Shown piece by piece: positions 3,001-33,824 of a stretch of 33,824 nucleotides of DNA. This DNA is from a virus. Within the stretch, counting starts at the first letter, position 1. Each line of letters begins with the position of its first letter. Position numbers and translations under genes: made by a program. The notes below the pieces were generated by a model. That model saw nothing but the letters and a program-made list of their open reading frames with translations, was not told where the DNA came from and ran no database searches. Location: positions 1-33,824 of the IMG/VR virus record IMGVR_UViG_3300036945_000648, one strand, 5' to 3'.

Positions 3001-6000
3001 ACTCTTTCATTCAATATTTAATAGATAACCCTTCTGCAATAGGAACAGGAGTACTAAGCGTTCTTACAGACGAAGAAGGTAAAGTAATGTTGTTTGAGAA
3101 GAATGGTGTACCTAGTCAAGTAGGAACTCCTTTAATTTCTACTTTTAAAGTTTCTACATTAAAAGGACAGTTAAAAAATTTAGTAGATCAAATAAAAGCA
3201 AATCCTGAAACAGTTGCTACTGCAAACATTACAGGAACAGTTCCTGGAACTGATTTAGTGCCTATTAATCTTTCGTCAGTTAAAAACAAAACTAATTATT
3301 CGCTTAGAGTAATAGATAGTCCTACTGCAGATACTACAGGAATGTATACTTTATATCCAGGCAGAACTTATATTATTAACTCTAATAATTTCTTTAAACC
3401 TGCAACTGCAGTTACCTTACCTAAAGCAGATGGTCAGTTAGTTTTTAAATTAGTAGAAGCATTTAATAATGGAACTCTACCAAACGGATTACCTGAGAGT
3501 GTCGAGGACTTTTTAAGTTACTTGAGAACTTATCAACTGACTTCTTTTAAGTCAGAAAAGGCTGTTTATATTTTAGACAAAAACAAAGCAGGAGATAAGA
3601 TTGTATTTAAAAAGAAAAACATAGCAGGTAAATGGCAAACTGTATCTACAATTACGCCTAAAGTACAACAAGCTATTGTTGAATCTTTCAATGACGCTTA
3701 CAAGAACATTGTAGCTGATAGACTAAACTCTAATGATAGATACTATCCAACAAGACTAAACGCTAAAGGAGAAATAGAATTACTTCCTGCAACAACTTAT
3801 AGAGACTTTGTAATGAGTCCAGAGTTTGGAGCAACTTTTAGAGAAGAAGGTAACAGAACTTTGGGATTTGATACTCCACAAATTAATGCACCTTCTAGTA
3901 GTCAAGTCACTGTTTCTGAAGTACTTGAGAATATTCCAAGTCAAGAGACTCCTATTACAGAAGCTGAAAATATTCCTACTCCTGTACCTGTTGTTCAAGA
4001 AACTCCTTCAAATATTGACACAGAAAAAAGAAGTTTATCTGTTGAAAAAGAAGTTCTTGATTTAAATAGAATTTTACAAAATGGATCATTTCAAGTAGGA
4101 GATACTAATGTTAGAATTAAATTAGATCCTAATGGTAACTTTCTCGGATATGAAACTACTGATAGTTCTGGAAAAAAAGTTATTAAAAATGAAGAGAGAC
4201 CTAGTACTAAAGATGATATAAAAAATATTAATAAAAAAAGAGATGTTCTTCTAAAACAGTTAGAAATACTTAACTCTAATATTAGTAAACAATTAGATTA
4301 TTTATTACAGAAACTAGGTTCTGAAAACTTAGAAGAGTTTTTAAATAAATTTTCTTTTCCACAAAGAGGAGTTCTTCAGAATATTAATGAAAAAAATATT
4401 TCTGTATATTACTTAACCAATTTTGAAAGATTAAAAACTATTGAAAAGGAAATTAATGAAAAGTATAATGAAGAACTATCTGGAATAAAAACTCCTCAAG
4501 AGAATATACCTGAAGTAACTACAGAACAACCTGTTAAAAAGAGAAAGAGTATTGCAGAACTAAATCAAGCTACAGAAGTAGAACAAATAAAGGAGTCTCA
4601 GTTAAAAAGATCTAGACTTCTTGAAAATAAAATTACAGCTAAACAAAAAGCAAAAGCAAAAGCATGGGTAGAGAATCATCCTATATTTAAGAACACTTCT
4701 TTTATATTTGACCAAACTATTAATCATCCTGAAGCATATGCTGTATGGTCTAAAGCAGGTATTCAGTTATTTAACGGAGCTAATTGGGCAGAAGCATATC
4801 ATGAGTCATGGCATGAATTTACTCAACTTTACTTAACACCTGAACAAAAACAAGCGTTATATAAAGAAGCTGCTAAAATCTACGGTAACTTAATTCCTTT
4901 TGAATTAGAGGAAAAAATGGCAGAAGATTTTAGATTGTTTGCTTTAAGTGACGGTAAAGTATTTCCCGAAGCTATTAAGAAATCGCAAGAAACTAAAAAT
5001 ATTTTTGAGAAAATTTGGAACTTTATTACTAACTTGTTTTCAAACAAAAAAACTGTAGACTTCTACTTTAAACAATTGTACAAAGGAAATATTGCAAGCT
5101 ACAGAAGGTCTGAAGACAATATTCGTTTTACAGAATTATTTAGTAGAAAACTTTCTATTCTTTCTAACGAAGAACTAAAAACTTTTAGTTTTGTAGAGTC
5201 CGATAAAATAGTTAAACAGTTTGATTCTTTATTTACACACGTAGCTAATCAAATTACTAAAAGTGTAAATGGTTCTTTTGTTAACGTAGCAGTTAGTAAA
5301 GAAGTTATTCCTAAAGTATATGTAGGAATAAAAAGTATTATTGCACAGACATATAAAGAACTTCTTGTACTAGAGGAAGCAGGAGATATTACTGTAGAAT
5401 CTAAACTAGATTATTTAGACGACCTTTTAGACAATTTTGATACAGTATCCCAATTTCATATTCAAAATAGTTTAATCTTTGATGACAAAGTTAAAAGAGG
5501 TATTCAATTAGAAGTTTTAGAAGAAGAACAAGATGCTAATACAGAGTTAGGAAGTTTTGATAAAAGTATAAACGAAATTTCTCAAAAAGAACTTGCATCA
5601 AATCTTATCATAAGTGCTATTAGAACTTTACCAAAACACACTAAAGGAAACATTAATCCTGAAGTAGATTACATATTTGGAGTTCCTCAATTAGGAGATT
5701 TTGATACTAACTGGAATATTTTAAGAAGAAGTTTAGCAGGTTTAACTACCTACGAACAAATGTATAATAAATTAAAAGAGTTGACTAAAGACTACCCTCA
5801 GTTTAATTCTTTAATAAATTATCTTCCTGCTTCTATAGAACGTTTTAGTTCTCTTTCATTTAAAAATGAATTCTTTAATTTGTTTACTATGCCTTATATG
5901 GAAGGCTACACAACCAAAATAAACAAAGACGAGGCTGGGAATGTAACCGATGTTAAAGTACAGAAGTCTAGTTCTTTGGATGCAGTACGTCTTAAAAACT

Positions 6001-9000
6001 TATACGATGGAGAGTTTGGAATGACTCAAGGTTTATATAAAGTTATGAATCCTAATACAGGACTACAAGACTTAGATGTAGACGCATACTTCACTAGCAA
6101 CCCTTCTTTACCAACAGGACTAGGTCCACTTGCTACTAACGAAGAAAAGAGAGCAAGAGCAGGTCAACTAGTTAATTTGCTTAGACCTCTAGGATTTAAT
6201 TTATCTCAAGCTGCAGTAGACTCTATTCCTTTAGAAGATATGTCTGTTCTTGAAAGAAACGTAAATTTTATTAGAACTAAGTTAAAGTCTTTAGGAGAAA
6301 ATGGTACAGTTGGTAATCCTTTAAACCAATTATCTAGTCCTCACAAAGTAGATAAGGCGGTTATTAAGTCTGAAAACTCTGCAGTAAATTATTTCTTAAA
6401 TTTAGAAGTAAAAGCTAACCCAGAGTACATTGATGATATGAGAATGAATGCAGAAGGCTCTAGAGTTTGGTCTGTAAATCAACATACATTTATGTCAAGA
6501 GTAGCTAGTGCTTTAAATGACTACGAAACTTATCCAACTGCAAAAGACGTTTATAAAGCATTCCCTCAACTAGATCCTGAATACAATTCAAACACTATAG
6601 GTTCTTTTGTCCTTGAATATTTATTCGACAAAGAGGGAAATCGCATAACTGATTCTTATAACGGAGGAAAAGCAACTTACAGACAAGTAGAGTTAGCAAA
6701 CTTAGAAGGTATCAAGATAGAAGAAGAAGGTGAAAAAACTATCAACACTAACTACATTGATAAACATTTTGCTGAAGTAAACAGTTTCTTACAATCTGGA
6801 GTAGAAGAGATTAACCGTTTAAGTGGTAAATCTACTACAAGGTCTTTTGTTTTAGACTTAGGCTTAAGAAAATTTTTAGGAATGGATAAGCCAGCAAGTA
6901 AAGATGGTCAAGGACACATTCGCTTGTTTGAGCCTCAAATGAGACTTCTCTTCAAAGCTATCATGTCTGAAATCAAAATGACTAAAGAAATTGAAGATAA
7001 AATTGCTAATGGTCAAAAAGTCTACATTCATCCTAAAGTAAGTATTAGAGATTCTAAAGGAAGTCCTAAGTTAGGATACTTTGAAGACATCTTAAGTTCT
7101 GAACAACGTACAAAACTTTACAATGAGTTTAAAGACAAAGACGTAACTGATGAAAACGGAGAAAACATTTTAAATAAATTATTTGAAGAAGCTGTAGAAA
7201 AATATCCTATTGTTATTGAAATAGCTAAAAACTTTAATATATATTTTAATGGACAAGTTGATGTATCTCTTGGGTATTTTAAAGCTAAAAACCTAGATAC
7301 TATTCAGCCTGTTGATTTGTTTAAGTATCATTTTTATAGTTTCTTAAGTAGATTAGAACAACATAAATTATTCTACGGACATCCTTACTACTATAAAAAT
7401 GCTAAAGACATTGAGAAGCGTTTATCTGCTTGGAATGCATTTGGTAGTTATACTATGTTGGATCCTGCAAACACAGCTTTCTTACAAAACAAAGTATTTA
7501 CTCAAAGAGGGTCATTTATTAATTATGCTGAACAAAACAACATTCCTATTAATGAACAGAAAAATGATCTTTCAAAAGTTAATTATATTGTTTTAAAAGA
7601 CAACGCAGTTAAATCTAAAACAGCTTTAGAAAACAAAGAAGCTTACGGAGAATCTTTAGACGCTTACACTAACGATAAAAGCACTAAAACTCAAGATGCT
7701 GCTGCATTTATGACAGTAGATTTCTTTAAGAGATTTTACGCTTTATCTACAGGAATAACTCCTGAAATGGATCAGGAGATAGGTAGACAAAATAGAATTT
7801 ATCAAGCAATTTTAGACAATGATCAAGAGACTTTATCTAAAGAATTAAATACAAAAGCTTCTTATAAGTTTACTATCAAAAAGTTACAGTATGCAGGTTT
7901 TGCTAAAGGAGTAAATAACGAAGGTATTCCAGTATTCCACAAATACTCTGTTAAACCTATCTTACCTTCCGAAGCTGTTAACAATCCTGAACTATTAGCT
8001 ATTCTTCACAAGTTACATGCATCATCTGCTGATTATGCTGTATTCGAATCAGGTACTAAAATTGGAGAGACTATAGCACCTGTATCTTTATTTAAGAATG
8101 GAAAAGTAGATACTACTAATGTTCCTATTGGACAAATTGATATTAAACATTTAAAAGAACAAGTTTTAATTGAGAACAAAGAATCGTTTGAATCTGTATT
8201 TAGTACTCAGTTTAGATCTCTTCTTTATAAAGATGCTGAAGATGCAGAAGTATTAAAACTTTATGAAGCTTACAAATCTTACGTAAAAGAAATTGTAGAC
8301 TACGACAAAATTAACTATTTAGAAAACTTAAACGATAAAGATAAATTAGTTAACTTTCTTCTTAAAGAACTTGAGAAGAAAAACGCTTCTGAAGCTACCA
8401 AAGACTTAATCAAACTTAAGACTGATGGTTCTTTGATGTATATGCTAGATTCTATGGTTGACCGTACTGTAATGGAAAGTGCAATTGTATCTAGTGCTAA
8501 GCGTAAAATTATTCGTCAGAAGTTAAATGGTGCACAAAGAGTACAATATCCTGTATCTGTAGTAAGACCAGGAAGAACTCTTAACTATTATTCTTTGACT
8601 AAAGATGGAAAAAAAATCAATAAAGCAGAAGTTATTGTTTCATTTTCTAAAGGATATTATCCTCTCCTTAATTTAATATACGAAGGAAGCCCTCTAGGCG
8701 AACTAAATGCTAATGGTGAACCTACCAATCCTTTTGATGCTTTAACTCGCTTAAACGAGGCTTTAAAGAATCCTGCATTTGTTAAAGCAAATGAGAAAGC
8801 TCTTTCAATGGTAGCTATTCGTATTCCAGGACAAGGATACAACTCTATGGAGAACTTTACAGTAGTCGAATTCTTACCCGAAGAAAGTGGAGAGATTATC
8901 TTAGTTCCAGATGAAATGGTTGTTAAATCAGGTTCGGATTATGATATTGATAAATTATTTTGTTACGATCCTTACATCAAAGAAGATGGAACTGTTCCTT

Positions 9001-11525
9001 TAACTACTCAAACTGCTCAACAGTCTTTTGATAGAAAGAAAAAACTAACAGAAGATTACAAAGTTTTAAGTAGTGTTATTAATGAAACAAAGGAATTTAA
9101 AAATAGTCTTATTGCTCAACTAGAAAAAATTTTAACTAAGTACGGAGTAGATAAAAACAAAAAACTAAAAGAAGTTTATTCAGAACTAAGAGAGTTAAAA
9201 TCTCAACTTAGTAATGAAGTAGCTGAAGAAGAGTTGTCTGTTGATGCTTTGCAGAAGTTAAAAGACTATTTTAGCAAAGAAGTAACTGTACAAGAGTCTG
9301 AGCAGCAAAAACAAGTAGCTGAAGAAGTTAAAAAGATTCGGGAACAAGTTAAAAATTTACAAGAAGTTCTTAAAGAAACTTCTGGAACTAATATCTCTAG
9401 AGATCTTTATTTAGTATCGGAAGTATTTAAAAAACTATACGCAGATAAAAACGCAGTAAAAAATGAATTAGACGGTCTTAGAAAAACGCATGCTAACAAC
9501 TTAATATTCAATGTAGTAGATCGTTTAAGTCAGTCTGATATCTTCGATAGTTTGATTACTCCTAACTCGTCAGATATCATAAAAGGTTTGGCAAAAGAAT
9601 TTGGTACAATTGAGCCTAACACAAGTGCAACTTATACTAGTATCTTAAGTCCTATCTATCAACTGTATGTATTTAACTTAAACACTTATAAAAAGTCTTT
9701 AGGCGTAGGTGCTAAAATAAATACTTTCCACTCTTTAGTTCAAAAAGCTAAACTAAACTTAGAAAATAAATCAGCTAATAGATTATACATACTTCCTTCT
9801 AATAGAATAGATGGTAAAGTTTATTACTCTAGTATTTATGATGTCGATGGAAACTTAATCTCGCTTCTTAATGGCCAGATGATTTCTGCTCACGTAGATA
9901 TTGAAAAAGAAGACGAAGTAGCAAGAATATACTTTAATAACTTAATTACTCCAGTAGTTCTTTATACCGCTATTGCAGGAACTCCAATCTCTACTGTAAC
10001 AAGGTTGATTAACCAAAAGTATAAAAATGAACCAACAGATGAGAAATCTCAAAGATCTTCTATTGTTAGATATGGTTTAGGTACACCTGCTGAAGACATT
10101 CTACAAGAGATGATGTCAAACCCTGCTATTGCAAAATTAATTAAAGTAGGAAAATTTGGTATTAATGTTAAGAAAACGGTTGCTCAAGCTTTAAACTTGT
10201 TGACAAGCAAAACTACAGATGTAAAAGCTATTCAAGATTTCTTATTAACTGAAGAAACTCCTCTTGCAGATTTCTATAGATTTATGCAGTTTATGGAGTT
10301 TGAAGCTCAACAAAAACAACTTTCTACTTTATCGCTTAACACTGATTACCATACATTCTCTCCTCAAAACTTTGAGTCATTCAGAAGAGGTGCAGAAGAC
10401 TTACGTCAATTAAGAAAAGAAGAATACTTTAATAGAAGTGGAGTTGATTACATGATCTCTGAGACAGAGATTAGTCCTTTCCAAATTCAAGCAGACATCT
10501 TAGATAAGTTTGTAGAAGTAATGCCTATATCTGCTAATAGAAAATTAACAGACATTATCCTTACTATACATGCAGGTCTTAATAAAAAAGGCAGCAAAGT
10601 AGATTATGAGAAGTTTTCTCGTACTTTTAAAAACGATTTGCTTTATGCGTTGTTTGTTAATAGAGTTCCTGAATCTCAAGAATACGAACAGTACTTAATC
10701 AAGACTAACGAGAATAATGTTGTAAACATGCATAACTCCCTTAAGAGTCGTTTAGAGAAAAAAGGAATTGAGTCTAACAACGTAAGCTTTGATATGTTCA
10801 AACAGAACACCAACAATGAGTCTGCTTATATTAGAACAGGTTTATTACTTTCTTCTGTTGACTATTCTATCAATGTATACAAAGAAGCTTTTGAAGAAGG
10901 TTTGAGTTGGACTAATCCTACTCTTAACTTAGAGTCAGAAGAAGATATGCAGTTAGTAGAAGATATGCAAAAATTCTTCAAAGTATTTGCATATGCAGGT
11001 ATCTTAGGAACTCAGTTAAATAAAAAGATTGATTCTTACTTACCTTTAATTCCTGAGTCTATTTATACTTACTCTATGTCTCAAGTAGTAAACGAGTTTA
11101 AAAACGAGTTAGATACTGTTTCTGCAAAATTACTTGAAGAAGTAAGAAATACACTTGCTACTAAGCCTACAACACAAGAAGAAGACGTAGAAGATGCTTT
11201 AAACACTAAATTACTTTCTAGTTCTGATTTCTTAGGACAGTTTATTAATCGTTTCCAAGAAGTACATCCAGAGTTCTACAAAGTATTTAAAAATGTAAAC
11301 CCTGACTTAGCGTTCTTCAAAGACTATCGCTTAGACCAAGAAAACACTACTCCTACTAAAAAGAAAACAATAAAAGAAAATGTTCCTACTCCAACAGAGA
11401 CTAACGTATTGGAGTCAGTTCCAACGACTACTAAGTTAGTAACAGATATTGTTTCAGACCCTTTTAAGTCTGTAGAAGAAATTAATAGAGAACAAGAAAA
11501 TAACTGTATATCACCTAAAAATTAA
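3..11525 (+). CDS. Giant multi-domain virion protein: zincin peptidase motif plus crAss-like RNA polymerase active site (5' end outside window)
   Basis: The frame is open to the left edge, so the gene is 5'-partial; the GTG at 15 (used for numbering here) is only the first possible start. At least 3836 residues. An HESWH zincin motif lies at H1596-H1600, with acidic residues E1632-E1637 as candidate third zinc ligand. The RNA polymerase signature is a beta-prime-like double-psi barrel: RIPGQG, then FLP and VP strands, then GSDYDIDKL with D2975, D2977 and D2979 as the expected Mg-binding DxDxD loop. This lines up with cellular beta-prime (RAPTLH ... NADFDGD). A lysine in SGTKIGE (K2682) could belong to the first barrel; that is inference. 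A hydrophobic stretch near residue 155, a Pro/Thr/Ser-rich linker at about 1286-1336, a charged coiled-coil insertion after the catalytic loop and a Pro/Thr-rich tail separate the parts. In crAss-like phages such polymerases travel in the virion and transcribe early genes. The family call is strong; function of the N-terminal 1500 residues is unknown. Confidence 0.85.
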   Translation, partial: TFSSVFMTTFPRMYAQEINNFKDSGDALAVSTLRAVAEAATESVVPQTELFKTGRTYGPLDPMFKKLGDAMPFSFDVLSKKADVLLSLLPENAVSKTTAALALLPTQARKIASDAFQEGFVEEELSLLGNYFVDKYAKSLNFESPEANELTLDNVVETGLTGFIPSLLIAGGNEAVTGNIKKERLDQARWNMANNPATYKDLITKQVNSGSLSKEKGIQRMALVDSLNRRLESMSEMSNIKNLTTLLDDKEAQRQYFQNILAQEDLLRVNRLELNADQQKTYDTLLERTNKELDYTRKNIEKYTSLSNSEKQNIISKVFDRHAASLENPDTTLAEVLHAATYANRQINNFKSSDKNFEFVQQQYEKYRAKAEEILGEKISYFEDLLDNNPEEITNLELALARTSFLPLLAELNSNKVPYNQTSVEGPKENLGLLEKIDLELKSRLSLTPDEYTEQAVKNFNNPETKRLQRQQLTLAELSPEELKSGQLTEGAHTHLTDGDRISMAAALENHLEEKQQDPSKPTSLETFLEVVHANDYGVATNNLTPEQKTKTIRDLNKHILEAYNSQESKTPISSFNPNQPANPVKNTDFVEPTADAQDIIEYLGLDPENTFPINVLVYTDVNAKNRVIDEIEEPQDKANDRIALFETVLAQEDPLDIYSGLLAMYPEQAKNIEQFFATYEDSPNTNLLPFLTKSQVSQLTEVLNEKIKPEEAPKETASETDAKKVQTEKRITKTISSEIVEKGPRKGETYTVTQTDYVDTIEGDVRIVTKYESKIGKTRVSLGGGLRMTLREFKKEFPLDEDSKELLEGLDDDSIVTVRNVKKVFSSSRFKNVVHINHPDLDELYLTFEKNNAKYNAELAALENQVNPTEEISQATFEDEVTDGIIKDQELLSQIEQVPVTPRDLSLNIVSLDRENVPLTDDARTAFAVNVVNAFDNLREKLPAVKLRIQGAMETYAYVLSSAKFEALKTLKNKAALTPEDVATLKSILSLNGVPFHENSFIQYLIDNPSAIGTGVLSVLTDEEGKVMLFEKNGVPSQVGTPLISTFKVSTLKGQLKNLVDQIKANPETVATANITGTVPGTDLVPINLSSVKNKTNYSLRVIDSPTADTTGMYTLYPGRTYIINSNNFFKPATAVTLPKADGQLVFKLVEAFNNGTLPNGLPESVEDFLSYLRTYQLTSFKSEKAVYILDKNKAGDKIVFKKKNIAGKWQTVSTITPKVQQAIVESFNDAYKNIVADRLNSNDRYYPTRLNAKGEIELLPATTYRDFVMSPEFGATFREEGNRTLGFDTPQINAPSSSQVTVSEVLENIPSQETPITEAENIPTPVPVVQETPSNIDTEKRSLSVEKEVLDLNRILQNGSFQVGDTNVRIKLDPNGNFLGYETTDSSGKKVIKNEERPSTKDDIKNINKKRDVLLKQLEILNSNISKQLDYLLQKLGSENLEEFLNKFSFPQRGVLQNINEKNISVYYLTNFERLKTIEKEINEKYNEELSGIKTPQENIPEVTTEQPVKKRKSIAELNQATEVEQIKESQLKRSRLLENKITAKQKAKAKAWVENHPIFKNTSFIFDQTINHPEAYAVWSKAGIQLFNGANWAEAYHESWHEFTQLYLTPEQKQALYKEAAKIYGNLIPFELEEKMAEDFRLFALSDGKVFPEAIKKSQETKNIFEKIWNFITNLFSNKKTVDFYFKQLYKGNIASYRRSEDNIRFTELFSRKLSILSNEELKTFSFVESDKIVKQFDSLFTHVANQITKSVNGSFVNVAVSKEVIPKVYVGIKSIIAQTYKELLVLEEAGDITVESKLDYLDDLLDNFDTVSQFHIQNSLIFDDKVKRGIQLEVLEEEQDANTELGSFDKSINEISQKELASNLIISAIRTLPKHTKGNINPEVDYIFGVPQLGDFDTNWNILRRSLAGLTTYEQMYNKLKELTKDYPQFNSLINYLPASIERFSSLSFKNEFFNLFTMPYMEGYTTKINKDEAGNVTDVKVQKSSSLDAVRLKNLYDGEFGMTQGLYKVMNPNTGLQDLDVDAYFTSNPSLPTGLGPLATNEEKRARAGQLVNLLRPLGFNLSQAAVDSIPLEDMSVLERNVNFIRTKLKSLGENGTVGNPLNQLSSPHKVDKAVIKSENSAVNYFLNLEVKANPEYIDDMRMNAEGSRVWSVNQHTFMSRVASALNDYETYPTAKDVYKAFPQLDPEYNSNTIGSFVLEYLFDKEGNRITDSYNGGKATYRQVELANLEGIKIEEEGEKTINTNYIDKHFAEVNSFLQSGVEEINRLSGKSTTRSFVLDLGLRKFLGMDKPASKDGQGHIRLFEPQMRLLFKAIMSEIKMTKEIEDKIANGQKVYIHPKVSIRDSKGSPKLGYFEDILSSEQRTKLYNEFKDKDVTDENGENILNKLFEEAVEKYPIVIEIAKNFNIYFNGQVDVSLGYFKAKNLDTIQPVDLFKYHFYSFLSRLEQHKLFYGHPYYYKNAKDIEKRLSAWNAFGSYTMLDPANTAFLQNKVFTQRGSFINYAEQNNIPINEQKNDLSKVNYIVLKDNAVKSKTALENKEAYGESLDAYTNDKSTKTQDAAAFMTVDFFKRFYALSTGITPEMDQEIGRQNRIYQAILDNDQETLSKELNTKASYKFTIKKLQYAGFAKGVNNEGIPVFHKYSVKPILPSEAVNNPELLAILHKLHASSADYAVFESGTKIGETIAPVSLFKNGKVDTTNVPIGQIDIKHLKEQVLIENKESFESVFSTQFRSLLYKDAEDAEVLKLYEAYKSYVKEIVDYDKINYLENLNDKDKLVNFLLKELEKKNASEATKDLIKLKTDGSLMYMLDSMVDRTVMESAIVSSAKRKIIRQKLNGAQRVQYPVSVVRPGRTLNYYSLTKDGKKINKAEVIVSFSKGYYPLLNLIYEGSPLGELNANGEPTNPFDALTRLNEALKNPAFVKANEKALSMVAIRIPGQGYNSMENFTVVEFLPEESGEIILVPDEMVVKSGSDYDIDKLFCYDPYIKEDGTVPLTTQTAQQSFDRKKKLTEDYKVLSSVINETKEFKNSLIAQLEKILTKYGVDKNKKLKEVYSELRELKSQLSNEVAEEELSVDALQKLKDYFSKEVTVQESEQQKQVAEEVKKIREQVKNLQEVLKETSGTNISRDLYLVSEVFKKLYADKNAVKNELDGLRKTHANNLIFNVVDRLSQSDIFDSLITPNSSDIIKGLAKEFGTIEPNTSATYTSILSPIYQLYVFNLNTYKKSLGVGAKINTFHSLVQKAKLNLENKSANRLYILPSNRIDGKVYYSSIYDVDGNLISLLNGQMISAHVDIEKEDEVARIYFNNLITPVVLYTAIAGTPISTVTRLINQKYKNEPTDEKSQRSSIVRYGLGTPAEDILQEMMSNPAIAKLIKVGKFGINVKKTVAQALNLLTSKTTDVKAIQDFLLTEETPLADFYRFMQFMEFEAQQKQLSTLSLNTDYHTFSPQNFESFRRGAEDLRQLRKEEYFNRSGVDYMISETEISPFQIQADILDKFVEVMPISANRKLTDIILTIHAGLNKKGSKVDYEKFSRTFKNDLLYALFVNRVPESQEYEQYLIKTNENNVVNMHNSLKSRLEKKGIESNNVSFDMFKQNTNNESAYIRTGLLLSSVDYSINVYKEAFEEGLSWTNPTLNLESEEDMQLVEDMQKFFKVFAYAGILGTQLNKKIDSYLPLIPESIYTYSMSQVVNEFKNELDTVSAKLLEEVRNTLATKPTTQEEDVEDALNTKLLSSSDFLGQFINRFQEVHPEFYKVFKNVNPDLAFFKDYRLDQENTTPTKKKTIKENVPTPTETNVLESVPTTTKLVTDIVSDPFKSVEEINREQENNCISPKN

Positions 11526-11547: not shown

Positions 11548-14500
11548 ATGTTTTGCCCAAATCTATCAGATCCTGAAATAAAAAGAAAATTTGAATCGCT
11601 TAAAAGTGTTTATCCTGAAGGTGCTTATTACCTTTGGGATAAATACCAAGGAGAGGTTCCTGCTAAATACTATAACGTTCCTGCTAATGTATTAAGTACA
11701 TACCCAGCAAAATCATTAAATAAATTAACTTCTGAAGAACTTAAAACAGTTCAAAATACTATGGAAAATAAACTCTTAGTAGAAGAAGATTCTAACTTTA
11801 ATATAAAAGGAGGACAAGCGTATGTATATTTAAACTCGGAGGATGCAAGTAGAATGACATCTCTTTTAAATAAACACAAAGAATATCCAAAAGAGTTTAA
11901 AGTGACAAAGAAAGTTACTAAGTATAAAAGAGAAGGACTTAGCTTTGTAGGATATAATGAGTATAAAGATTTATTTTACGTAAAGTCTAATAATAATAAA
12001 AAATCTAACCTTTATAATATTATTGATGTAGAAACAGGAGAATTAATTGCGGAAAAAGTTAGAGTACTACATCTCACTAAAGATGCTAAGTCTCAAATTT
12101 CTAAAAATTATGGACTAGAGCATAATCCTACTAAAGTTTTTAACGCTAATAGAAGTATTGGATTTGCTTTATATAGACAGAAACCTTCTAAAGCTAAGTA
12201 TGTAGCTCAGGCTAAAAAGTATTTATATGATGCAATTAAGTTTTTAAATCCTTCTGAAAGTAATTTAAAAATTAATTTAAATCAAATTGAGAGTTTACTC
12301 GATAGTTTTCCTGAAGAGATGTGGGATTATATTAATACTACATATTCTCCTGAGGAAGAAACTAACGTAAATGCATCTATCTCTTTAAGTAATAAAGTTT
12401 TATTTAATTTACCTAAATTAGGGTTAATTACTGAAATTGAAAAATTAGTTGGTTTTCCTATTCTAAATGCGTCCTTTAAAAACTATGATAGATCAGGAAA
12501 GATTAGTAAAATATTAAGAGCTTCTTGGGGACAAACCGTTACTATAGACTCAAGTCTTACTAAAAAACAACTACGTGCTGCTATTGCATATTATTTAAAA
12601 CAACAAGAATACTTTAAACCAAGTTCTGAAGAAGAGAATGTTCGTAAATATGCTGAACATAATAACATTGATTTAGAAAAATTACAAAATTTAGTTTTTG
12701 GAAGTATTGAAGATGCTCTACAAAATATTGCTTGGAATATGTCAAATAATTCAGACACTATTGAAGTTTCTAAATGGAGAGAGTCTATTAGAAATTACGA
12801 TTGGCAAACTGTAGAATTATTTAGTAAGCCTTATACAGAATTTAATAAACTAGCCGCAGATAGGATTACAGAAAAGTTTAAAGATAAAAAGTTATCTAAC
12901 GGTATTTCCCACTTAGATTATTTTTTTACAGGTAATTTTAATTGGTTAAATATTAATTTTAATAATATTTCAGGAAATTACTACTTAAAAGATAATGAAA
13001 CACTTGCACCTGTAGGAGTAGCCTACCAAACTAAAGGATATATTGAGTTATTTCAAATGGCTAATTATAAAAGACCTAAGCCAGGAGAGCACTTTTTAAA
13101 AGAAGAGGAAGTTTTTAACAGACTAGCTGCTATTTTACATGAGCCTGTTCACGCTTTACATGCTTTATCTTTTGGAACCAAGGAAGAGCTAGCTCTTAGA
13201 GATTCTTTTGGCAAGTTAGCTAATACAGAATTTGGTAAACAAATGCTGTCTCAAGTATTTGGAGATCAATACAATAACAAGTCAATAACTCCTGATATTT
13301 TATATAAAGAGTTTACTGCTTTTGCAACTCAATTACTTCTTTATCCTAAAGAGTGGATTAATCAAACTGACCTACGAAGTAACGATATTTATGAATTTTT
13401 AGAAAAAGTACAAAATTTACAAGATAAAACTTATGTAGAGGTTGTCAAGTCTATAGAAAAAGTAGGAGAAGAAGAAACCATTATTAATAAAGAAGAACAA
13501 CTTAAACTGTCTTTTTTAGAAAAATTTTACAACTATATTGTTTCTGCCTTAAACAAAGTTATTCCTTTATCTAAAAAGTTTTTTAAACTTATTCCTGAAA
13601 CAAAGTTAGTATCTGAAAAAATAATAAATGATGTTTTTGCTGAGGTAGAACGTACAGAAGAACGTAATTTACCTTTACCTAAAGAACTTGTTAAAGCAAA
13701 AGAACAGTTTTTAGAAGCTATGGACGAATTTAAATCTGCTATCAACACTCTTATGCAGATAGATGGATCTTTGTTTTCTTCTAATAATGTTAATGAATTC
13801 TTTCAAAGAAACTCTTCATTTGCACAAGAAACAGGTAGAGTTAAAGAAGGAGTATCTGAAGTATTTGAATCTAATCCTGAGTTAGCTAACGTGGGTACAC
13901 CTCAACAATTCTCCCAGTACTTAGAGACTATTTTGCCTAATGCTACTATTCAGTATAGGGGGGACCAAAAAGGATTATCTCAATTTAGATATTCTACTCC
14001 TACAGAAGAGTCTAGAAGAACTGGTAACGTACATAAATTAGGTCCAGGAGTATATACTACAACAAGTCCACAAGAAGCCGATAAACACGCTAAGAATAAC
14101 AAAGGAGAAGTTTATCCTGTGCTAGTAAGTAAAGGTTTAACCTTTGATACTAGAATGGATTTCTTACAAGCAGTAGCAGATTCTTTAGGAACAGAAAATA
14201 TTCCAACAGAAGCTCAAGTAGAAAAGTTTGTAAAAGACCAACAAGACTTAGGTAACAGTATTACAGTTAAAGAGTTAAAAGAAACTGTTAGTGCTGTAAA
14301 AAACGCTATCCCTTTAAACACTTCTAAAGTCATAGAAGGATTTAAACAGTTTGTAGGTAGCAAAAGTAGTACTACCAATAATTTATTAGATGTTTATAAT
14401 AATGTTGATATTAGTAATGCTGAAAAGGAAGACTATAAGATAATAATTGACGATACACTTTATCTAGATAATACTGAATCTAAAGATTCTTACTTTGGAT

Positions 14501-17500
14501 ATTGGATGCCTATAATGTTAAATGGAAAAGACATAGGCAGAGTTCGCTTTGAACAAAAAGTTAATATAATTGAACAAGGAAAACCTGCTGTTAAAACATT
14601 TAGTCCTAACATTCAAATATACTCAGCTAAGCAATTAGGGCAAGAACAAGATAATCAAAAGAAAGGAATAGGTTCTAAGGTTCATATTGCACTTTATAAG
14701 TATGTAAAATCTTTGTATCCAAAGTATCCTTTTGTTTCAGATGTTCAGAATACTATAGCTGAAATGGGCTTATTAAAGTCTTTTGAAAGACAAGGTATTG
14801 TTACTCAAATAAATCCTATCGGAGAGATTAGTGAAAAATACGGTAACTACTCTGTACAAGAAGCTCCTTTTATATTTAACGACGACTATTTTCAACAAAC
14901 TAGCAGCCTTATATCCAATAATAAACCTTCAGAGAATGTAATGTATTCTCGTCCTGGTGCAAGGGAAGCTATTATAAGTGCATTACTAAATGAAGATAAG
15001 TTTAGAGATCTTTTAATCAAGACTACTTCATTAAAACTAGGAGGTAATCCAGTTACTAATAGAAATGTTGTTAAAGACTATGTATGGGAACATGTAAAAT
15101 CTAACCTAAACTATAACGGAAAGTTTACAATACAAGGAAATGTTATTAGTATTTTTCCTTCTGAAAATGTAGAAGATAAAGAACCTAAAGGTGTAGCAAG
15201 TACTTACGTTAGACAATTAAATAAAACTTACTTTTCTAACATACTTAATCCTTCCTTTCATTACAAGGAGATAGACGGTGTTCCTTCTATTGTTTATGAT
15301 CCTTCTAGGGCTTTACTTGATGTAGTTGCAGATGCAATAAACAGAGATCAAGCGAATGAAGCTATAATAACTAGAGAGATGGAAGCAGAAGTTGCTCTTC
15401 TTAATATTGCAGAAAACGCACGTGAAGAACATTTAGGAATGTTAGAAAAACTAGCAAGTGCAAATGAAGCTCTCATAGATGGAGAAGTATTTCCTTTAGA
15501 CAATTCCGTATTTGATTCTAGAATACAGTTAATGAGATGGACTTCAAGATCTACTACTCAGAGTCAAGCTAAAGTTCTTGATAAACTTGCTGAAAGATTT
15601 CCTGGAGTTACTTGGGAATGGGATACAACTATAGATACACCTGGTAAAGTAGATTTAAACTCAGGTAAAATTCTTTTAAACCCTTCTTTAGTTAACAGTG
15701 AAACTCCTTGGCATGAGTTTGGTCACATAGTAGTAAGGATGATTAAACAATCAAATCCTGAACTATTTGTACAACTTAGAGAAGATGTAATAAGACTTCA
15801 TCAATTAGCTCCTCACATATCTTCACAAGCTCACGTAGAAGAACTATATCCTGAATACATAGGAACAGATTTATTCTGGGAAGAAGCCATTGTAACAGAG
15901 TTAGGAAGACAGTCTGTAGATGTTTATGAAGCAGCTGGTGAATATAAAGAAAGCGAATCTCTTTACCAAAAGATAAAAAACTGGCTTAACAACTTGCTTA
16001 ATAACATGTTAGGTAAGAAAGCTAACTTAAGCAAAGTAACTACTATTGCTGACTTAGCTAATATATTAGGAGGTACTGAGACTAAGTTTGATAAATTTAA
16101 AAATCAAGAGACTGAGAATGCAGTAGGAGAATTTATGTTCTCTCGTATTCTTAACGACAGTCAAAGAGACCTACTTATTTCGCAAATCAAAACACCTGAT
16201 GGAACAACAGACTACACAGACTGGGGAACTAAGTTAAAAGACCTAACTTCTAAAATTGACATAGAAGAGTTTAGAAAACTAATCTACACAAACAAATTCT
16301 TAAATGTAGATAGCACAGTTTTAGATACAGCTAAGAGAGCTTTAAGTAGAATAGGTGATATTATTACAGCAGAAGACGTTGCTGAAGCTGTTTTAGACTT
16401 AGCAGAGTTCTATCAGTATGGAGCATTTTATTTAAGCCGTTTAGAGGCTAATATGAAAGGCATACAGGAAGAAAACAAGTTGCCTATAGCAAAACAACTT
16501 TCAATTTTTCATAACAGCTATAAACAAGCTTTAGCATTTGAGGCATACTTTAAAGAACTTCAAAAACTATTTAAAGTAGGTACTAATATCCCTACAAGTG
16601 CAGAAGAAAAAAGACTAACTAAGCAAGTAGATTTTTTAGCAAATGCTTACAATATAAATGCGGCTATTACTCAAATTAAAAAAGCTCACTTAGAAAGAAT
16701 TGAACAACCTGTAGCTAAAATTTTAGCGGACAATTTTAAAGAATCTACTGATAAACTTAGAAAGGATTTTAATAATGAGATTGAAAGACTTGAAAAATTA
16801 AACGCAAAAGGCAATTTTACCAAAAAGATTAAAAAGTTAGAAACCCAAAGAGACGAGTTACTAGCAAGTGAAGAAAACATTATTAAGTTTTTTAAAGAAA
16901 AAGTAAATGGAACTTGGTTGCCTCAAGGTCTTCAGTGGGCAGATACTAATATGACTAGTAATGATCCTGCTGTAAACTTAGTAGCTAACTTTATTAGTGA
17001 CATGATTAATGATGCTAGAGTAGAGTTAATTCCTGTAGCTAATCTTTGGCAAGGTTTAATGGATGAAGTAGCTCAAGCACAAGGTGATTTTGCTGGTACT
17101 TTTATTGACTCTAAAGATTTTTTTAAGCCTTTTTACAGAGTAGCTGAAGAATACGAAGTTATTGATGGAGAATTAGTTAAAGGTAAAAAAGTATTAGTTT
17201 TAAATACTCCTGCTAAAATTCAAGAGCTTCAAAATAAATTTACTGAACTTAATCATATAATTGCAACTTCTCAAGATGAACAAAAAAGAGATGAAGCAGA
17301 AGATGAATTAAAACGTCTTTACGAACAATATACAGAAAGACCTTTTACAGATGAATATTATGAGCTTCAAAAACTTCTGCCAGAAAAAGTACGTACTGTA
17401 AGACAAGAAAAATTTAACACTATTTTTGCTTTACATGAAACTTTGTTAATGGAAGATGATGCAAACTCTGCTCAAACTATTTACCGTCTTAAACTAGCTA

Positions 17501-20500
17501 ATAAAGAACTTTACGACTTAGAACGTTTATATGATGATTTAGGGAACCTTAAAACAGGAGAGGAAAGAGAGATAGCAGAATCTATTATTGAATGGAAAGA
17601 AGCTAGAAGAGAAGCTACTACAATTGAGTATGAAATTACTGAAGAAGCAAAAGGTACTTATGAAAGAGAACTTGCTAAACGCAAACTAATTAGAGACTCT
17701 AACTTGGCTAATGCAACTACTCAAGCAGATAAAGATGCAGCTATTGAATCCTATAATAACTGGACTTCTGTTTATAGTCGCACTGTATACTCTGAACAGT
17801 TTTATATAGAACGTGAAAGTGTGTTGTCTCAAATTCACAAATTATTAGGAAAATCTACAGATACACAAGTAGATCAACTTTATAAAGAAATTTTTAACGC
17901 TTTAAGAGGCCGTAAAGATAAAAACAATCAATACGATGCCAGAGATATTACTCCTGAATTTGCTCGTTCTCTTAAATTAAAAGAAGAAGCTATCGAAGTT
18001 GCTAAGAGAAGCATTAAAGGCTCTGGTTTAGGTGCTGTAGATAAAGAATATTTCTTTTCTTTACTTGAAGAGTTGGAAGATTTACAAACTTCTGTGCCTA
18101 CCGAACACTATAAAGACACTGTAGAAGCTATTCAAGCGGCTATAAGAACTCAAGTAATTAGTGAAACTCCTGAACTTGATACATTTTCTATAGAAAAACA
18201 AGTTACAGAAAGGTTTAAAAAGACTCCATGGTACATAGATAATCACATAGCTAAAGTTCGTTGGAACAAAGAGACTGAGGAAATGAATTCTGTTATGGAA
18301 CCAATCTTTATGTGGAGAGTAACAGTTCCTAAAAACCCTAACTATATTCTTAAAGAGCAACCTTCTTTTTATTGGTTTAAGGCTAAAGTAAATCCTAAGT
18401 TTAAAAACCCTAATTACAAACCAGGAGAAGTTACTTTCAAAGAAGTTACTGCAGGAGCTTATTATAATTCTGATTACGATCAATTAAGTCCTGCCCAAAA
18501 AACCGTACTGCAAAAAATTAGAGCAGCTCACTATGCAACTCAAGAAGGAATTTATACTAGAGATAAACTTTATGATAAAATTCCTGCATTAGAAAAATCT
18601 AAGGGAGAAATTGCTTTAGATGCAGTAAAATTAAGAAAAAATCCTTTAAAAGACAGTTTTGCTAAACTTAAAAATACACTAACTTTTAATACAGAAAACG
18701 ATCCTGACGCAGAGTCTGAAGGTATTGCAGATCAAAGTGATGTATTTGGTAACGAAATGAACAAGTCAGCAAGACGTTTATTTTTACGTTATAGTAGAGC
18801 TTTACCTATAGAAGAACAATCTTACGATATTATGGCTGCTTTAAGTTCTTATGCAGCTGCTGCTGTTAAGTTTAAAACTATAAGAAAATACCAATCTAGT
18901 TTATTAAGTACTGAAGAGGTTCTTAAACAGTTATCAGGTTCAGAAAGTACTCGTTCTAAACTTATCCAAAACATGATGGATAGGGTAGTTTATGGAAGAG
19001 GCAGAAACAAAATTAATTCAATCGGAGGTAAATTAGTAGCAACTACTGCTTCAGGAGTTTCTAAATTAGCATCAACTGCTGCTTTAGGACTAAACATAAA
19101 AGCTATTCCTAAGAACTGGTTTAATGGATATTTTACAAGTTGGACTCAAATGCAGTTTAATGGGTTAAGTAAAAATGATTTTGCAAAAGCTCACGTAGAT
19201 ACTACAAGATTAAGTCTGACTTATTTTACAGAGTTTGCTCAGTTTGGTAAAAAATCCCTTAAACTACAATTAGTTGATTACTTTGTAGGATTACAACATA
19301 ATCCTTTTGAAGATGCTAAAAATGTTTCTAACATAGGCTTAAGAAAGTATGGCAAGTTACCAAGAATAGTATCATCAATAAGAGGGTATTCAGAGTATGA
19401 TATTTCTTCAAATATTGTATTTGCTTTCTTAAACAAATATAGAGTTCTTCTTAAAGGGTCTACTCAAACTATTCCTCTTAAAGATGCATTTACTCAAAAA
19501 AACGGAGTAATTGTTTTAAGAGACGATGTAGATGTAAGTGAGGATTTTATAAAACACATAAGAAGAGAGATTCAACTTGCTAATATTAGATCTCAAGGTG
19601 CTTACGACGATGTTGCACAACCTGAATTAATTAAGTATACTGCTGCTAAAATGGCTTTATGGATGAAAAGGTTTATGGTTCAACATATCAAAACATACTA
19701 TGGAGGAAATACTATTCATTATGGAGCAGGTATTAGAACTGTAGGAGCTCATAGAGCACTTCTTAATGTAGTAAAAGATCTATATAGTACTAGAAGTTTT
19801 GCAGGAATTTCTGCTCATGACAAAGCAGGAATGCTTCAGTTAGGTAAAGCATATGCAGGATATATAATCTTAGCTAATATGATTAAAGCTATGTCTTTAA
19901 TTGGAAACTGTGAAGATGATGGTGTAGCTGATTGGAAAGATTATGTTTGTGCTCAATTAAAAAGTATTACATCAGAAGCTGAAGGTGTATTTACTGTTTG
20001 GGGAATGAATGAAGCTTTAAATACTTACTATCAAGAGAGGGCAAATAATATTTCTATAATTGAAAGAATAGGTTCCTCTATTGCAGGTCCATCAAGTGTA
20101 ATTTCTAAATGGTCAGATTCAGATTTATGGACTACAGATCCTTACTATAAGTATAAACCAAACTCAAGTAAAATTGATTGGGATAGAACACATCCTCTTC
20201 TTGCAGGTAAAGCTGGTTTACAAGTACTGGGCCTTAAAGTTTTAGGTGCTGCAGGTTTATCAATAGATCCTACTTCTATGGAATACGATAATAGAAGATT
20301 TAACGCTTATACTCCTAAAACTTATACTAAACAACTGACAACTGCATTTGACGAAGAGTATAAAGGAGTAAAAGAAATTTCTACAAGAACTCCAATAGGA
20401 CAAGTTAAAAAAGAACTTAAAAAAGAAACGTTAGAGATTAAGAGAAAAATATTATTAGCTCAAAAAAATAATGAAGATATTACTCCATTATTACAAGACC

Positions 20501-20649
20501 TAAGAACAGCTCAAGAAAATGCAATAAAGGCTGCTCAAAATATTAAAACTTCTAAGCCTAAGAAAGACTATTCAATCGACATACTTCCTACTCCTTTTTG
20601 GAAAAGAAAAGGGATGGATTTAGAAGAAATGGCGGATGATATAGAATAA
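11548..20649 (+). CDS. Giant polyvalent-type virion protein: two zincin motifs, ADP-ribosyltransferase-like and GNAT-like segments
   Basis: 3033 residues, starting 22 nt after the first giant gene and in a different frame. Visible in order: an N-terminal segment with the motif AYYLWDKYQGE; zincin motif HEPVH (H531-H535) with E588 as possible third ligand; an ART-like segment at about 795-880 (YRG at 803, GPGVYTTT at 832, E-V-Y-P at 854), resembling ARTs of phage polyvalent proteins; a GNAT-like segment at about 968-1115 with KKGIGSK (G1040) followed by the expected SD...L..S...G pattern; zincin motif HEFGH (H1389-H1393) with E1445/E1446; long charged coiled coils at about 1500-2200; and a C-terminal region (about 2400-3033) with hydrophobic stretches such as AGYIILANMIKAM. 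Likely packaged in the particle and delivered with the first giant protein, to modify or cleave host or phage proteins; this role is inferred from the polyvalent-protein literature. The ART and GNAT calls are motif-level and less certain than the zincins. Confidence 0.85.
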   Translation: MFCPNLSDPEIKRKFESLKSVYPEGAYYLWDKYQGEVPAKYYNVPANVLSTYPAKSLNKLTSEELKTVQNTMENKLLVEEDSNFNIKGGQAYVYLNSEDASRMTSLLNKHKEYPKEFKVTKKVTKYKREGLSFVGYNEYKDLFYVKSNNNKKSNLYNIIDVETGELIAEKVRVLHLTKDAKSQISKNYGLEHNPTKVFNANRSIGFALYRQKPSKAKYVAQAKKYLYDAIKFLNPSESNLKINLNQIESLLDSFPEEMWDYINTTYSPEEETNVNASISLSNKVLFNLPKLGLITEIEKLVGFPILNASFKNYDRSGKISKILRASWGQTVTIDSSLTKKQLRAAIAYYLKQQEYFKPSSEEENVRKYAEHNNIDLEKLQNLVFGSIEDALQNIAWNMSNNSDTIEVSKWRESIRNYDWQTVELFSKPYTEFNKLAADRITEKFKDKKLSNGISHLDYFFTGNFNWLNINFNNISGNYYLKDNETLAPVGVAYQTKGYIELFQMANYKRPKPGEHFLKEEEVFNRLAAILHEPVHALHALSFGTKEELALRDSFGKLANTEFGKQMLSQVFGDQYNNKSITPDILYKEFTAFATQLLLYPKEWINQTDLRSNDIYEFLEKVQNLQDKTYVEVVKSIEKVGEEETIINKEEQLKLSFLEKFYNYIVSALNKVIPLSKKFFKLIPETKLVSEKIINDVFAEVERTEERNLPLPKELVKAKEQFLEAMDEFKSAINTLMQIDGSLFSSNNVNEFFQRNSSFAQETGRVKEGVSEVFESNPELANVGTPQQFSQYLETILPNATIQYRGDQKGLSQFRYSTPTEESRRTGNVHKLGPGVYTTTSPQEADKHAKNNKGEVYPVLVSKGLTFDTRMDFLQAVADSLGTENIPTEAQVEKFVKDQQDLGNSITVKELKETVSAVKNAIPLNTSKVIEGFKQFVGSKSSTTNNLLDVYNNVDISNAEKEDYKIIIDDTLYLDNTESKDSYFGYWMPIMLNGKDIGRVRFEQKVNIIEQGKPAVKTFSPNIQIYSAKQLGQEQDNQKKGIGSKVHIALYKYVKSLYPKYPFVSDVQNTIAEMGLLKSFERQGIVTQINPIGEISEKYGNYSVQEAPFIFNDDYFQQTSSLISNNKPSENVMYSRPGAREAIISALLNEDKFRDLLIKTTSLKLGGNPVTNRNVVKDYVWEHVKSNLNYNGKFTIQGNVISIFPSENVEDKEPKGVASTYVRQLNKTYFSNILNPSFHYKEIDGVPSIVYDPSRALLDVVADAINRDQANEAIITREMEAEVALLNIAENAREEHLGMLEKLASANEALIDGEVFPLDNSVFDSRIQLMRWTSRSTTQSQAKVLDKLAERFPGVTWEWDTTIDTPGKVDLNSGKILLNPSLVNSETPWHEFGHIVVRMIKQSNPELFVQLREDVIRLHQLAPHISSQAHVEELYPEYIGTDLFWEEAIVTELGRQSVDVYEAAGEYKESESLYQKIKNWLNNLLNNMLGKKANLSKVTTIADLANILGGTETKFDKFKNQETENAVGEFMFSRILNDSQRDLLISQIKTPDGTTDYTDWGTKLKDLTSKIDIEEFRKLIYTNKFLNVDSTVLDTAKRALSRIGDIITAEDVAEAVLDLAEFYQYGAFYLSRLEANMKGIQEENKLPIAKQLSIFHNSYKQALAFEAYFKELQKLFKVGTNIPTSAEEKRLTKQVDFLANAYNINAAITQIKKAHLERIEQPVAKILADNFKESTDKLRKDFNNEIERLEKLNAKGNFTKKIKKLETQRDELLASEENIIKFFKEKVNGTWLPQGLQWADTNMTSNDPAVNLVANFISDMINDARVELIPVANLWQGLMDEVAQAQGDFAGTFIDSKDFFKPFYRVAEEYEVIDGELVKGKKVLVLNTPAKIQELQNKFTELNHIIATSQDEQKRDEAEDELKRLYEQYTERPFTDEYYELQKLLPEKVRTVRQEKFNTIFALHETLLMEDDANSAQTIYRLKLANKELYDLERLYDDLGNLKTGEEREIAESIIEWKEARREATTIEYEITEEAKGTYERELAKRKLIRDSNLANATTQADKDAAIESYNNWTSVYSRTVYSEQFYIERESVLSQIHKLLGKSTDTQVDQLYKEIFNALRGRKDKNNQYDARDITPEFARSLKLKEEAIEVAKRSIKGSGLGAVDKEYFFSLLEELEDLQTSVPTEHYKDTVEAIQAAIRTQVISETPELDTFSIEKQVTERFKKTPWYIDNHIAKVRWNKETEEMNSVMEPIFMWRVTVPKNPNYILKEQPSFYWFKAKVNPKFKNPNYKPGEVTFKEVTAGAYYNSDYDQLSPAQKTVLQKIRAAHYATQEGIYTRDKLYDKIPALEKSKGEIALDAVKLRKNPLKDSFAKLKNTLTFNTENDPDAESEGIADQSDVFGNEMNKSARRLFLRYSRALPIEEQSYDIMAALSSYAAAAVKFKTIRKYQSSLLSTEEVLKQLSGSESTRSKLIQNMMDRVVYGRGRNKINSIGGKLVATTASGVSKLASTAALGLNIKAIPKNWFNGYFTSWTQMQFNGLSKNDFAKAHVDTTRLSLTYFTEFAQFGKKSLKLQLVDYFVGLQHNPFEDAKNVSNIGLRKYGKLPRIVSSIRGYSEYDISSNIVFAFLNKYRVLLKGSTQTIPLKDAFTQKNGVIVLRDDVDVSEDFIKHIRREIQLANIRSQGAYDDVAQPELIKYTAAKMALWMKRFMVQHIKTYYGGNTIHYGAGIRTVGAHRALLNVVKDLYSTRSFAGISAHDKAGMLQLGKAYAGYIILANMIKAMSLIGNCEDDGVADWKDYVCAQLKSITSEAEGVFTVWGMNEALNTYYQERANNISIIERIGSSIAGPSSVISKWSDSDLWTTDPYYKYKPNSSKIDWDRTHPLLAGKAGLQVLGLKVLGAAGLSIDPTSMEYDNRRFNAYTPKTYTKQLTTAFDEEYKGVKEISTRTPIGQVKKELKKETLEIKRKILLAQKNNEDITPLLQDLRTAQENAIKAAQNIKTSKPKKDYSIDILPTPFWKRKGMDLEEMADDIE

Positions 20650-27434: not shown

Positions 27435-28115
27435 ATGGAAATTCCTAAAGAAGATATTTTTAAAGCCAAAAGGAAGCCTAAAGGCCCTATTTCTTTTAAA
27501 CTTAACTTAAACGAAGAACAAAAAGAAGCTAAAAGAATTATTCTAAACAACCCTATTACAGTTCTTTTAGGTAATGCAGGTAGTGGAAAAACTCTTACTG
27601 CTACTCAAGTAGCTTTAGATCAACTGTTTAATAGAGAAGTAGATAAAATTGTTATCACTAGACCTACAGTAACAGAAGAAGAGTTAGGGTTTCTTCCAGG
27701 AGACATTAGTGAAAAAATGGATCCTTGGTTACAACCTATCTACCAAAACTTTTATGCTCTTTACGGAAAAGACAAAATAGAAAAAGAAATTTCTGAAGGT
27801 AATATAGAAATTTTGCCTATGAGTTATATTAGAGGAATTACTTTTGTTAATACTTTTGTAATAGCAGATGAAGTACAAAACTTAACACATACTCAAATGG
27901 AAGCGTTATTAGGTCGTTTAGGACAAGGTTCTAAAATGGTACTTTGCGGAGACATTGCACAAATAGATTTAAAAAGTAAAAAAAGTAGTGGTCTTAGTTT
28001 CTTAAGAAGAGTAGAAGAACAAGTAGAAGGCTTCAAAGTAGTTACTTTAAAACAAAATCATCGTCATGACATAGTACAACCAATACTAGACGTCTATAAA
28101 TTATATGCAGACTAA
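27435..28115 (+). CDS. phoH: PhoH-like ATPase
   Basis: 226 residues. Walker A is GNAGSGKT (46-53, K52). ITRPTVTEEELGFLPGD, the PhoH-family segment after Walker A, follows at about 76-92. Walker B is VIADEVQN (D145, E146), and CGDIAQIDL with a final NHRHD arginine/histidine segment completes the helicase-superfamily-like core. PhoH proteins are RNA-associated ATPases, and phage versions are very common, but their role in infection is not settled. The length is near that of the core domain with no extra KH or PIN domain. It is the last gene of the plus-strand block and runs into the bidirectional terminator at 28119-28147. Confidence 0.92.
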   Translation: MEIPKEDIFKAKRKPKGPISFKLNLNEEQKEAKRIILNNPITVLLGNAGSGKTLTATQVALDQLFNREVDKIVITRPTVTEEELGFLPGDISEKMDPWLQPIYQNFYALYGKDKIEKEISEGNIEILPMSYIRGITFVNTFVIADEVQNLTHTQMEALLGRLGQGSKMVLCGDIAQIDLKSKKSSGLSFLRRVEEQVEGFKVVTLKQNHRHDIVQPILDVYKLYAD

Positions 28116-33790: not shown

Positions 33791-33824
33791 TTTGTGGAAA
33801 TGCAAGGGTCTGCTTTAAGAGGAA

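Follow-up and report, generated by a model that had tools for sequence, protein, structure and literature searches.

P0001, the 3033-residue product of a gene at 11548..20649 (+) in the window (the whole stretch of 33,824 nucleotides that was analysed), is probably a virion cargo protein of a crAss-like phage, with exchangeable host-modifying enzymes held in a swap slot. The first-pass annotation had described it as a packaged multi-effector, and both homology and genomic position appear to support that reading. Beyond it, we describe here a mobile module, a linker-bounded swap slot and a rule for the placement of terminal cysteines.

Genomic context and overall architecture

The P0001 reading frame starts with ATG and contains three cysteines in total. 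It lies beside a virion polymerase, as had been claimed: directly upstream is the gene for a crAss-type DxDxD RNA polymerase (3..11525, +), of 3840 residues and with its 5' end off the contig, which was recognised by tblastn and a motif scan. This polymerase has its DxDxD motif (SGSDYDIDKL) at residue 2979 and a zincin-like HESWH at residue 1600, and in tblastn it aligns, with E-values down to 4e-14, to proteins from the polymerase region of named crAss-like phages, several of which are annotated as putative RNA polymerase. A relative of 118 kb, G001, has both giant genes in the same order and a terminase with ~25% identity to crAss-like phage terminases. The polymerase homology of the window, taken with the gene order and terminase of G001, leads us to classify the window as belonging to a divergent crAss-like phage.

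In the closest relative found, G026, the polymerase is 47% identical and the backbone of P0001 is matched at 33% identity over residues 1101-2967, and what is one protein in the window is encoded by three genes. GIY-YIG homing-endonuclease genes (L087:7387-8031 and 8813-9478, -) lie between the separate GNAT, ART and backbone genes of G026. By alignment, the long backbone of P0001 is kept in this closest relative and partly in others. P0001 has no sequence match among named phages (tblastn); what it has in common with crAss001 gp49 and phi14:2 gp076 is position, and like them it would be the last protein of a block headed by the polymerase. Models of anti-phage defence proteins (PADLOC) also give no match.

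P0001 does contain the two HExxH motifs noted at first pass (HEPVH, residue 531; HEFGH, residue 1389), compared with a mean of 0.03 in shuffles of the same composition. A motif scan finds the first in six of six homologues and the second in all except L010; scans of the full protein and of segments against Pfam give no zincin match. The further claim that these zincins are duplicated is unsupported, since nothing marks the two domains as duplicates of each other and their contexts are unrelated. The sequence around the second zincin-like domain (15472..16092, +, with HEFGH at 15712-15726) is 29-35% identical in L002, L014 and L017, and the domain falls inside the 33% match to G026. A long charged middle region (16225..18267, +), probably helical as judged from its sequence only, is part of the backbone common to G026 at 33%. 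The C-terminal region (18568..20649, +), which lacks a cysteine at its tip and would be the last car of the chain described below, had been called hydrophobic. Weakly hydrophobic stretches are indeed present, but the Kyte-Doolittle maximum is just 1.3 (19 residues, near 2768 and 2884), and because this peak is so weak there is no clear membrane span.

Other genes in the window include a PhoH ATPase (27435-28115, +) and a dCMP/cytidine deaminase (29352-29807, -), both identified with Pfam, and a spore-photoproduct-lyase-like ORF of radical-SAM type, recognised by eye (32927-33805, -). A 530-residue ORF (21588-23180, +) has two similar halves in which YNRVVSAGG...SSMKAIYPMVGSS is repeated; it matches PHROG 17104, a family without a function, and is possibly a tail or fibre-type protein.

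Terminal cysteines of the cargo proteins

The polymerase has only two cysteines, one of which, Cys3835 of 3840 (11505..11507, +), is at its C-terminal tip, and P0001 has Cys3 at its N-terminal tip (11554..11556, +) within an MFC start that is also found in G026. The same pattern is seen wherever two cargo proteins meet: a cysteine falls within the final 12 residues of the upstream protein and another within residues 2-7 of the protein downstream. A C-terminal tip cysteine is present in all 29 upstream junction proteins (29/29, 0.43 expected) and an N-terminal one in all 42 downstream proteins (42/42, 0.32 expected), with none at the outer ends of cargo chains; these counts come from a hand-entered table, the expectation is that of random placement of the same cysteines, and the place of each protein in its chain follows annotation for the named phages and, for the others, partly the cysteine pattern itself. 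The rule was formed on IMG/VR contigs and then tested on named phages, where crAss001, phi14:2 and ten others (five subfamilies, Steigviridae and Suoliviridae) all obey it; it holds even when the first cargo gene is on the opposite strand. The tip cysteines at the crAss001 junctions are gp47 Cys2339 and gp50 Cys5, then gp50 Cys2404 and gp49 Cys5. In several cargo proteins of 1300-2300 residues the tip cysteine is the only one, and among comparison ORFs of 150-1000 residues 3.8% and 10.6% have a tip cysteine. The three gene products of G026 have the ends MFC...QCS, MSC...RVC and MAC..., and the two GIY-YIG ORFs between them have no tips. Exceptions to the rule are L084 and L099, with split cargo genes, in which the genes that carry linker L1 (see below) look broken or interrupted.

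The rule suggests an end-to-end coupling of the injected proteins, as between the cars of a train. We put at about even the chance that crassvirus cargo proteins are joined by disulfides between their terminal cysteines into one ordered chain in the oxidised virion, for example gp47-gp50-gp49 in crAss001. Such a covalent chain would be threaded through the narrow tail and would come apart in the reducing cytoplasm of the host, and the splitting or fusion of a cargo gene would be harmless provided that each new end acquires a cysteine. For the window itself, more speculatively, Cys3 of P0001 might pair with polymerase Cys3835 in the oxidised virion, a pairing that might fix the order in which the cargo leaves, with release in the reducing cytoplasm.

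Structural work on crAss001 (PMC10172136) places gp47, gp49 and gp50 in the virion and describes disulfides that link tail proteins, as well as tail constrictions under 50 Å through which the cargo must pass partially unfolded; packing and contacts among the cargo proteins are given there as the probable determinants of extrusion order. The word 'cysteine' is absent from that paper. A disulfide-linked chain would fit all of these observations. The tip cysteines might instead be tags for metal binding, capsid docking or scaffold binding, a reading that deserves serious weight although we think it somewhat improbable. An inter-cargo disulfide is reported neither here nor in the literature searched, and terminal tags could serve for docking to the portal. 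Docking would, however, have no need of the pairing that is observed, in which tips are confined to the junctions between cargo proteins and the new ends created by gene splitting in G026 bear new tips.

In Escherichia phage N4 (L117) the proteins gp50, gp51 and gp52 have zero cysteines in ~4300 residues and, unlike the cargo of the window, no tips. The N4 virion polymerase is of a different kind from the crAss-type enzyme. The absence of cysteine from the ejected N4 proteins implies that ejected phage proteins may avoid cysteine in general, with the tips being special to crassviruses.

Ferritin-like ORFs (Dps-type, Pfam Ferritin) are found within the cargo block at L099:8091-8582 and L093:11185-11685, and a YkuD L,D-transpeptidase ORF (L099:10336-12225) is located directly behind an L1-bearing gene; none of these has terminal cysteines. 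Small ORFs annotated as thioredoxin or thiol-disulfide isomerase are located not far from the polymerase block in cr128_1 (L109:7788-8033) and cr111_1 (L113:25535-25804), and would be suggestive if the cargo is coupled by disulfides.

The ART and GNAT domains

The letters that had been read as ART-like (YRG, GPGVYTTT and EVYP) are found within about residues 803-860, inside a cassette that spans residues 789-937 (13912..14358, +). The segment alone matches ART-PolyVal (PF18760) with an E-value of 4e-4 and 21.6 bits, below the curated cut-off of 31.2 bits, and the full-length protein likewise gives only a sub-threshold match to this family. Homologous cassettes lend support: ART-PolyVal matches eight of 11 of them, with a best E-value of 4.4e-12, and the window segment is 24-32% identical to the cassettes with which it aligns. 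The window segment is absent from the matches of a leave-one-out ART profile, so that the ART assignment rests on the Pfam match, the aligned cassettes and the place of the segment between linkers. There is also a weak match to diphtheria toxin (E 0.6). Of the matches listed for a structural model of both cassettes, a single one falls on the ART part: 6kyf, titled 'an anti-CRISPR protein' (Z 6.0, rmsd 4.2, 101 residues), which we take to be AcrIF11, an ADP-ribosyltransferase; middling Z values may arise by chance. Residues 789-937 are described here as a putative ART domain, supported by sequence comparison.

The GNAT cassette (residues 963-1112; 14434..14883, +) is found by profile. Window residues 978-1105 score 45.1 bits, with an E-value of 6e-13, against a profile built from nine other cassettes, and when the window is included in the profile its best matches in the PDB are acetyltransferases, with a top E-value of 0.0026. 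The KKGIGSK letters that had been noted are present near residue 1038 and align with the NKGYG of the other cassettes, at the position of the acetyl-CoA loop (Q/RxxGxG/A-like). In an AlphaFold model of both cassettes, for which the mean pLDDT is 55 and the structural comparison covered well only model residues 171-324 (the GNAT part), residues 963-1112 match mainly acetyltransferases (best Z 8.2 over 125 residues, rmsd 3.5). The window cassette appears, from the profile matches, this low-confidence model and the aligned loop, to have both a GNAT fold and an acetyl-CoA loop.

P0001 could be mainly a polymerase subunit or an ejection-channel protein, in which ART and GNAT are minor or decayed passengers. 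The annotation of crAss001 gp49 as a putative RNA-polymerase subunit favours such a role, as does the conservation of the backbone outside the two cassettes (33% over 1101-2967). We nevertheless think this unlikely as a full account, because the domains in the slot stay open and retain their family motifs in many unrelated phages, and a role for the backbone is in any case compatible with one for its passengers.

A mobile module upstream of the slot

Residues 50-764 of P0001 (11695..13839, +) form a module of ~715 residues that contains the first HExxH motif (HEPVH, 13138-13152) and is defined by its homologues and by comparison with G026. Scans match residues 55-781 at 58-71% identity in five other contigs; in these pairs the polymerases, where present, are only 23-31% identical and the remainder of the P0001-type protein is mostly at or below about 35%, with the near-identical L014 and L015 excepted. 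G026 is without the module, and there the equivalent of window residue 49 joins that of residue 765 directly. The direct junction of the flanks in G026 indicates that the module has been gained or lost whole, as a block. Recent transfer of the module was considered and is unsupported, since its synonymous sites, unlike those of the linkers, are saturated (codon identity 0.604 against 0.59 expected); this implies either an old transfer or strong constraint. An AlphaFold model based on six sequences, with a pLDDT of 39.6, is unusable for assigning a fold, and a profile of the module finds no relative in the PDB.

The swap slot and its linkers

Sequence comparison shows the stretch that follows residue 764 to be a swap slot, in which the enzyme domains differ between phages and are bounded by short linkers. 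The usual layout is L1, slot 1, L2 (ITPQQKQQALQLYSQYLD), slot 2 and L3 (SKQDIEGFKEFV). In the window the linkers are degenerate copies: slot 1 is empty, and L2 is degenerate and fused to the ART domain, which is followed by L3 and then by GNAT. The window version of L1, VKEGVSEVFESNPELAN (residues 765-781; 13840..13890, +), was recognised from the consensus of 51 contigs; in L002, at the edge of the slot, L1 reads IKPGVQELFDSNPELANQVYEALGF. The L2 remnant, TPQQFSQYLETILPN (13897..13941, +), can be aligned to (I)TPQQKQQA..YSQYLDTIFPDS in other cassettes, and L3, NTSKVIEGFKQFVG (14317..14358, +), matches the L3 that closes the cassette on its downstream side in relatives. Beyond the module the order of the domains differs, with ART then GNAT in the window and GNAT then ART in L002, and in L014, L015 and L017 the module runs almost straight into the second zincin. 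In L010 a PD-(D/E)xK-like stretch recognised by eye (L010:3366-4290; VETKIVNEVYGYAGTIDFLAI..ILDWKS) replaces ART and GNAT.

A single query with the ART and GNAT stretch of the window found no relatives, but the linker pattern did. When a degenerate DNA pattern for L1 was used to search for virus contigs, it found 51, and exactly one copy of L1 is present per record in 30 of 30 records. The 50 slot-1 inserts fall into 28 unrelated clusters, the largest of which, with 12 members, is GNAT-like; the domains that follow the main linker include GNATs, kinases, NADAR, ParB-like, 2H and peptidases. For example inserts, Pfam matches above the cut-off are ART-PolyVal (41.9 bits in L051; cut-off 31.2), AAA_33 (62.6) and Zeta toxin (33.6), and sub-threshold matches are to NADAR, ParB, 2H/tRNA-ligase-type and SprT-like families. 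Of 20 regions inspected, 19 have L1 either in the polymerase gene itself (four cases) or in a gene just downstream of it, with a small ferritin-like ORF in between in one of the 19; in the twentieth no polymerase was detected. A 2H-phosphoesterase-like domain follows L1 in the polymerase protein of G004, between the same linkers, and L1 in this polymerase gene is 82% identical in DNA to that of the window over 51 bp and 91.6% identical over an 83-bp stretch to that in the cargo gene of G001.

The linkers are conserved at the DNA level. Where the amino acid is the same, codon identity is 0.842 for L1 (0.541 expected) and 0.779 for L2 (0.581 expected), the expected values being derived from flanking codon usage and the ~715-residue module serving as the control. 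Comparison of 1060 pairs whose flanks are unrelated shows identity climbing from ~0.32 to 0.74-0.97 across an L1 island of ~75 bp and then dropping again. The similarity of the linkers looks to be one of related DNA, and conservation at synonymous sites together with the ~75-bp island is what the movement of cassettes through recombination within linkers would be expected to leave.

Linkers L1, L2 and L3 might alternatively be cleavage sites, at which the zincins would cut the giant protein and free single effectors. Zincin processing has been proposed for polyvalent proteins (PMC5512222), zincin-like motifs are present in P0001 and most of its relatives, and the linkers are conserved peptides that separate enzyme domains. 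We consider this explanation improbable, since a role for the peptide alone fails to explain the conservation of synonymous sites (0.84 against 0.54) and G026 already has the same pieces as separate genes; linker cleavage and cassette exchange could nonetheless both hold. That the linker is a functional DNA site, such as a packaging, origin or homing-endonuclease site, that merely chances to sit in the gene would fit the DNA-level conservation, the single copy per record and the GIY-YIG genes that flank the G026 cassettes, but is very unlikely given the codon pattern common to L1 and L2, a peptide unmatched in 50,697 named phage records, which argues that the linker is not a general crassvirus site, and the restriction of GIY-YIG genes to 11 of 32 records, with one inside a cassette only in G026.

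The scarcity of GIY-YIG homing endonucleases also led us to reject them as a general engine of cassette exchange. A bacterial origin of the linker was likewise set aside, the only three GTDB species-genome contigs that carry it being titled as MAGs or as an isolate bin of an uncultured lineage. A text search of the literature for the linker peptide gave chance matches only.

Relationship to known systems and implications

Giant virion proteins grouped around the polymerase, with the same pattern of terminal cysteines as in the window, are found as gp47-gp50-gp49 in crAss001 and gp078-gp077-gp076 in phi14:2. The phi14:2 proteins gp076-gp078, of the same position class, are listed as virion proteins by MS/MS. 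The window proteins differ from these cargo proteins in being longer and in having the ~715-residue module and the linker-bounded ART and GNAT cassettes.

P0001 also resembles the polyvalent proteins, which have several enzyme domains per polypeptide, including zincin plus ART, and are encoded near virion genes (PMC5512222). At least two effector-type domains in a single phage polypeptide characterise that class, and P0001 has ART, GNAT and zincin-like motifs. Crass-like phages and linkers have zero occurrences each in the main text of that paper, which describes the N4 virion RNA polymerase gp50 as giant, injected and zincin-fused, and T4 Alt as a head-packaged ART (PMC5512222). Polymorphic toxin systems similarly swap their toxin modules by recombination (PMC3482391); in P0001, by contrast, the variable domains are internal, have linkers on both sides and belong to a virion-type protein of a phage. 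Neither the linker-bounded slot nor the terminal-cysteine rule was found in the literature searched, which took in few subscription journals. By analogy with these systems, P0001 seems to belong with the crassvirus cargo proteins and to work like a polyvalent protein.

We envisage that P0001 is packed in the capsid and ejected together with the polymerase. Once in the host cytoplasm, the ART and GNAT domains would draw on NAD+ and acetyl-CoA to modify proteins of the host or of defence systems, and the presence of different enzymes in the same slot would meet different hosts and defences.

What had been a vague multi-effector can now be given as a named locus, with one swap slot per phage adjoining the virion polymerase, and the linker DNA provides a handle with which uncultivated phages can be searched for new enzymes directed against hosts or their defences. 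Since crAss001 and phi14:2 obey the tip rule, the question raised in PMC10172136 of how crassviruses order megadalton cargo and thread it through tail constrictions under 50 Å becomes testable. Enzymes carried in the swap slot of crAss-like phages would come into play as soon as infection begins.
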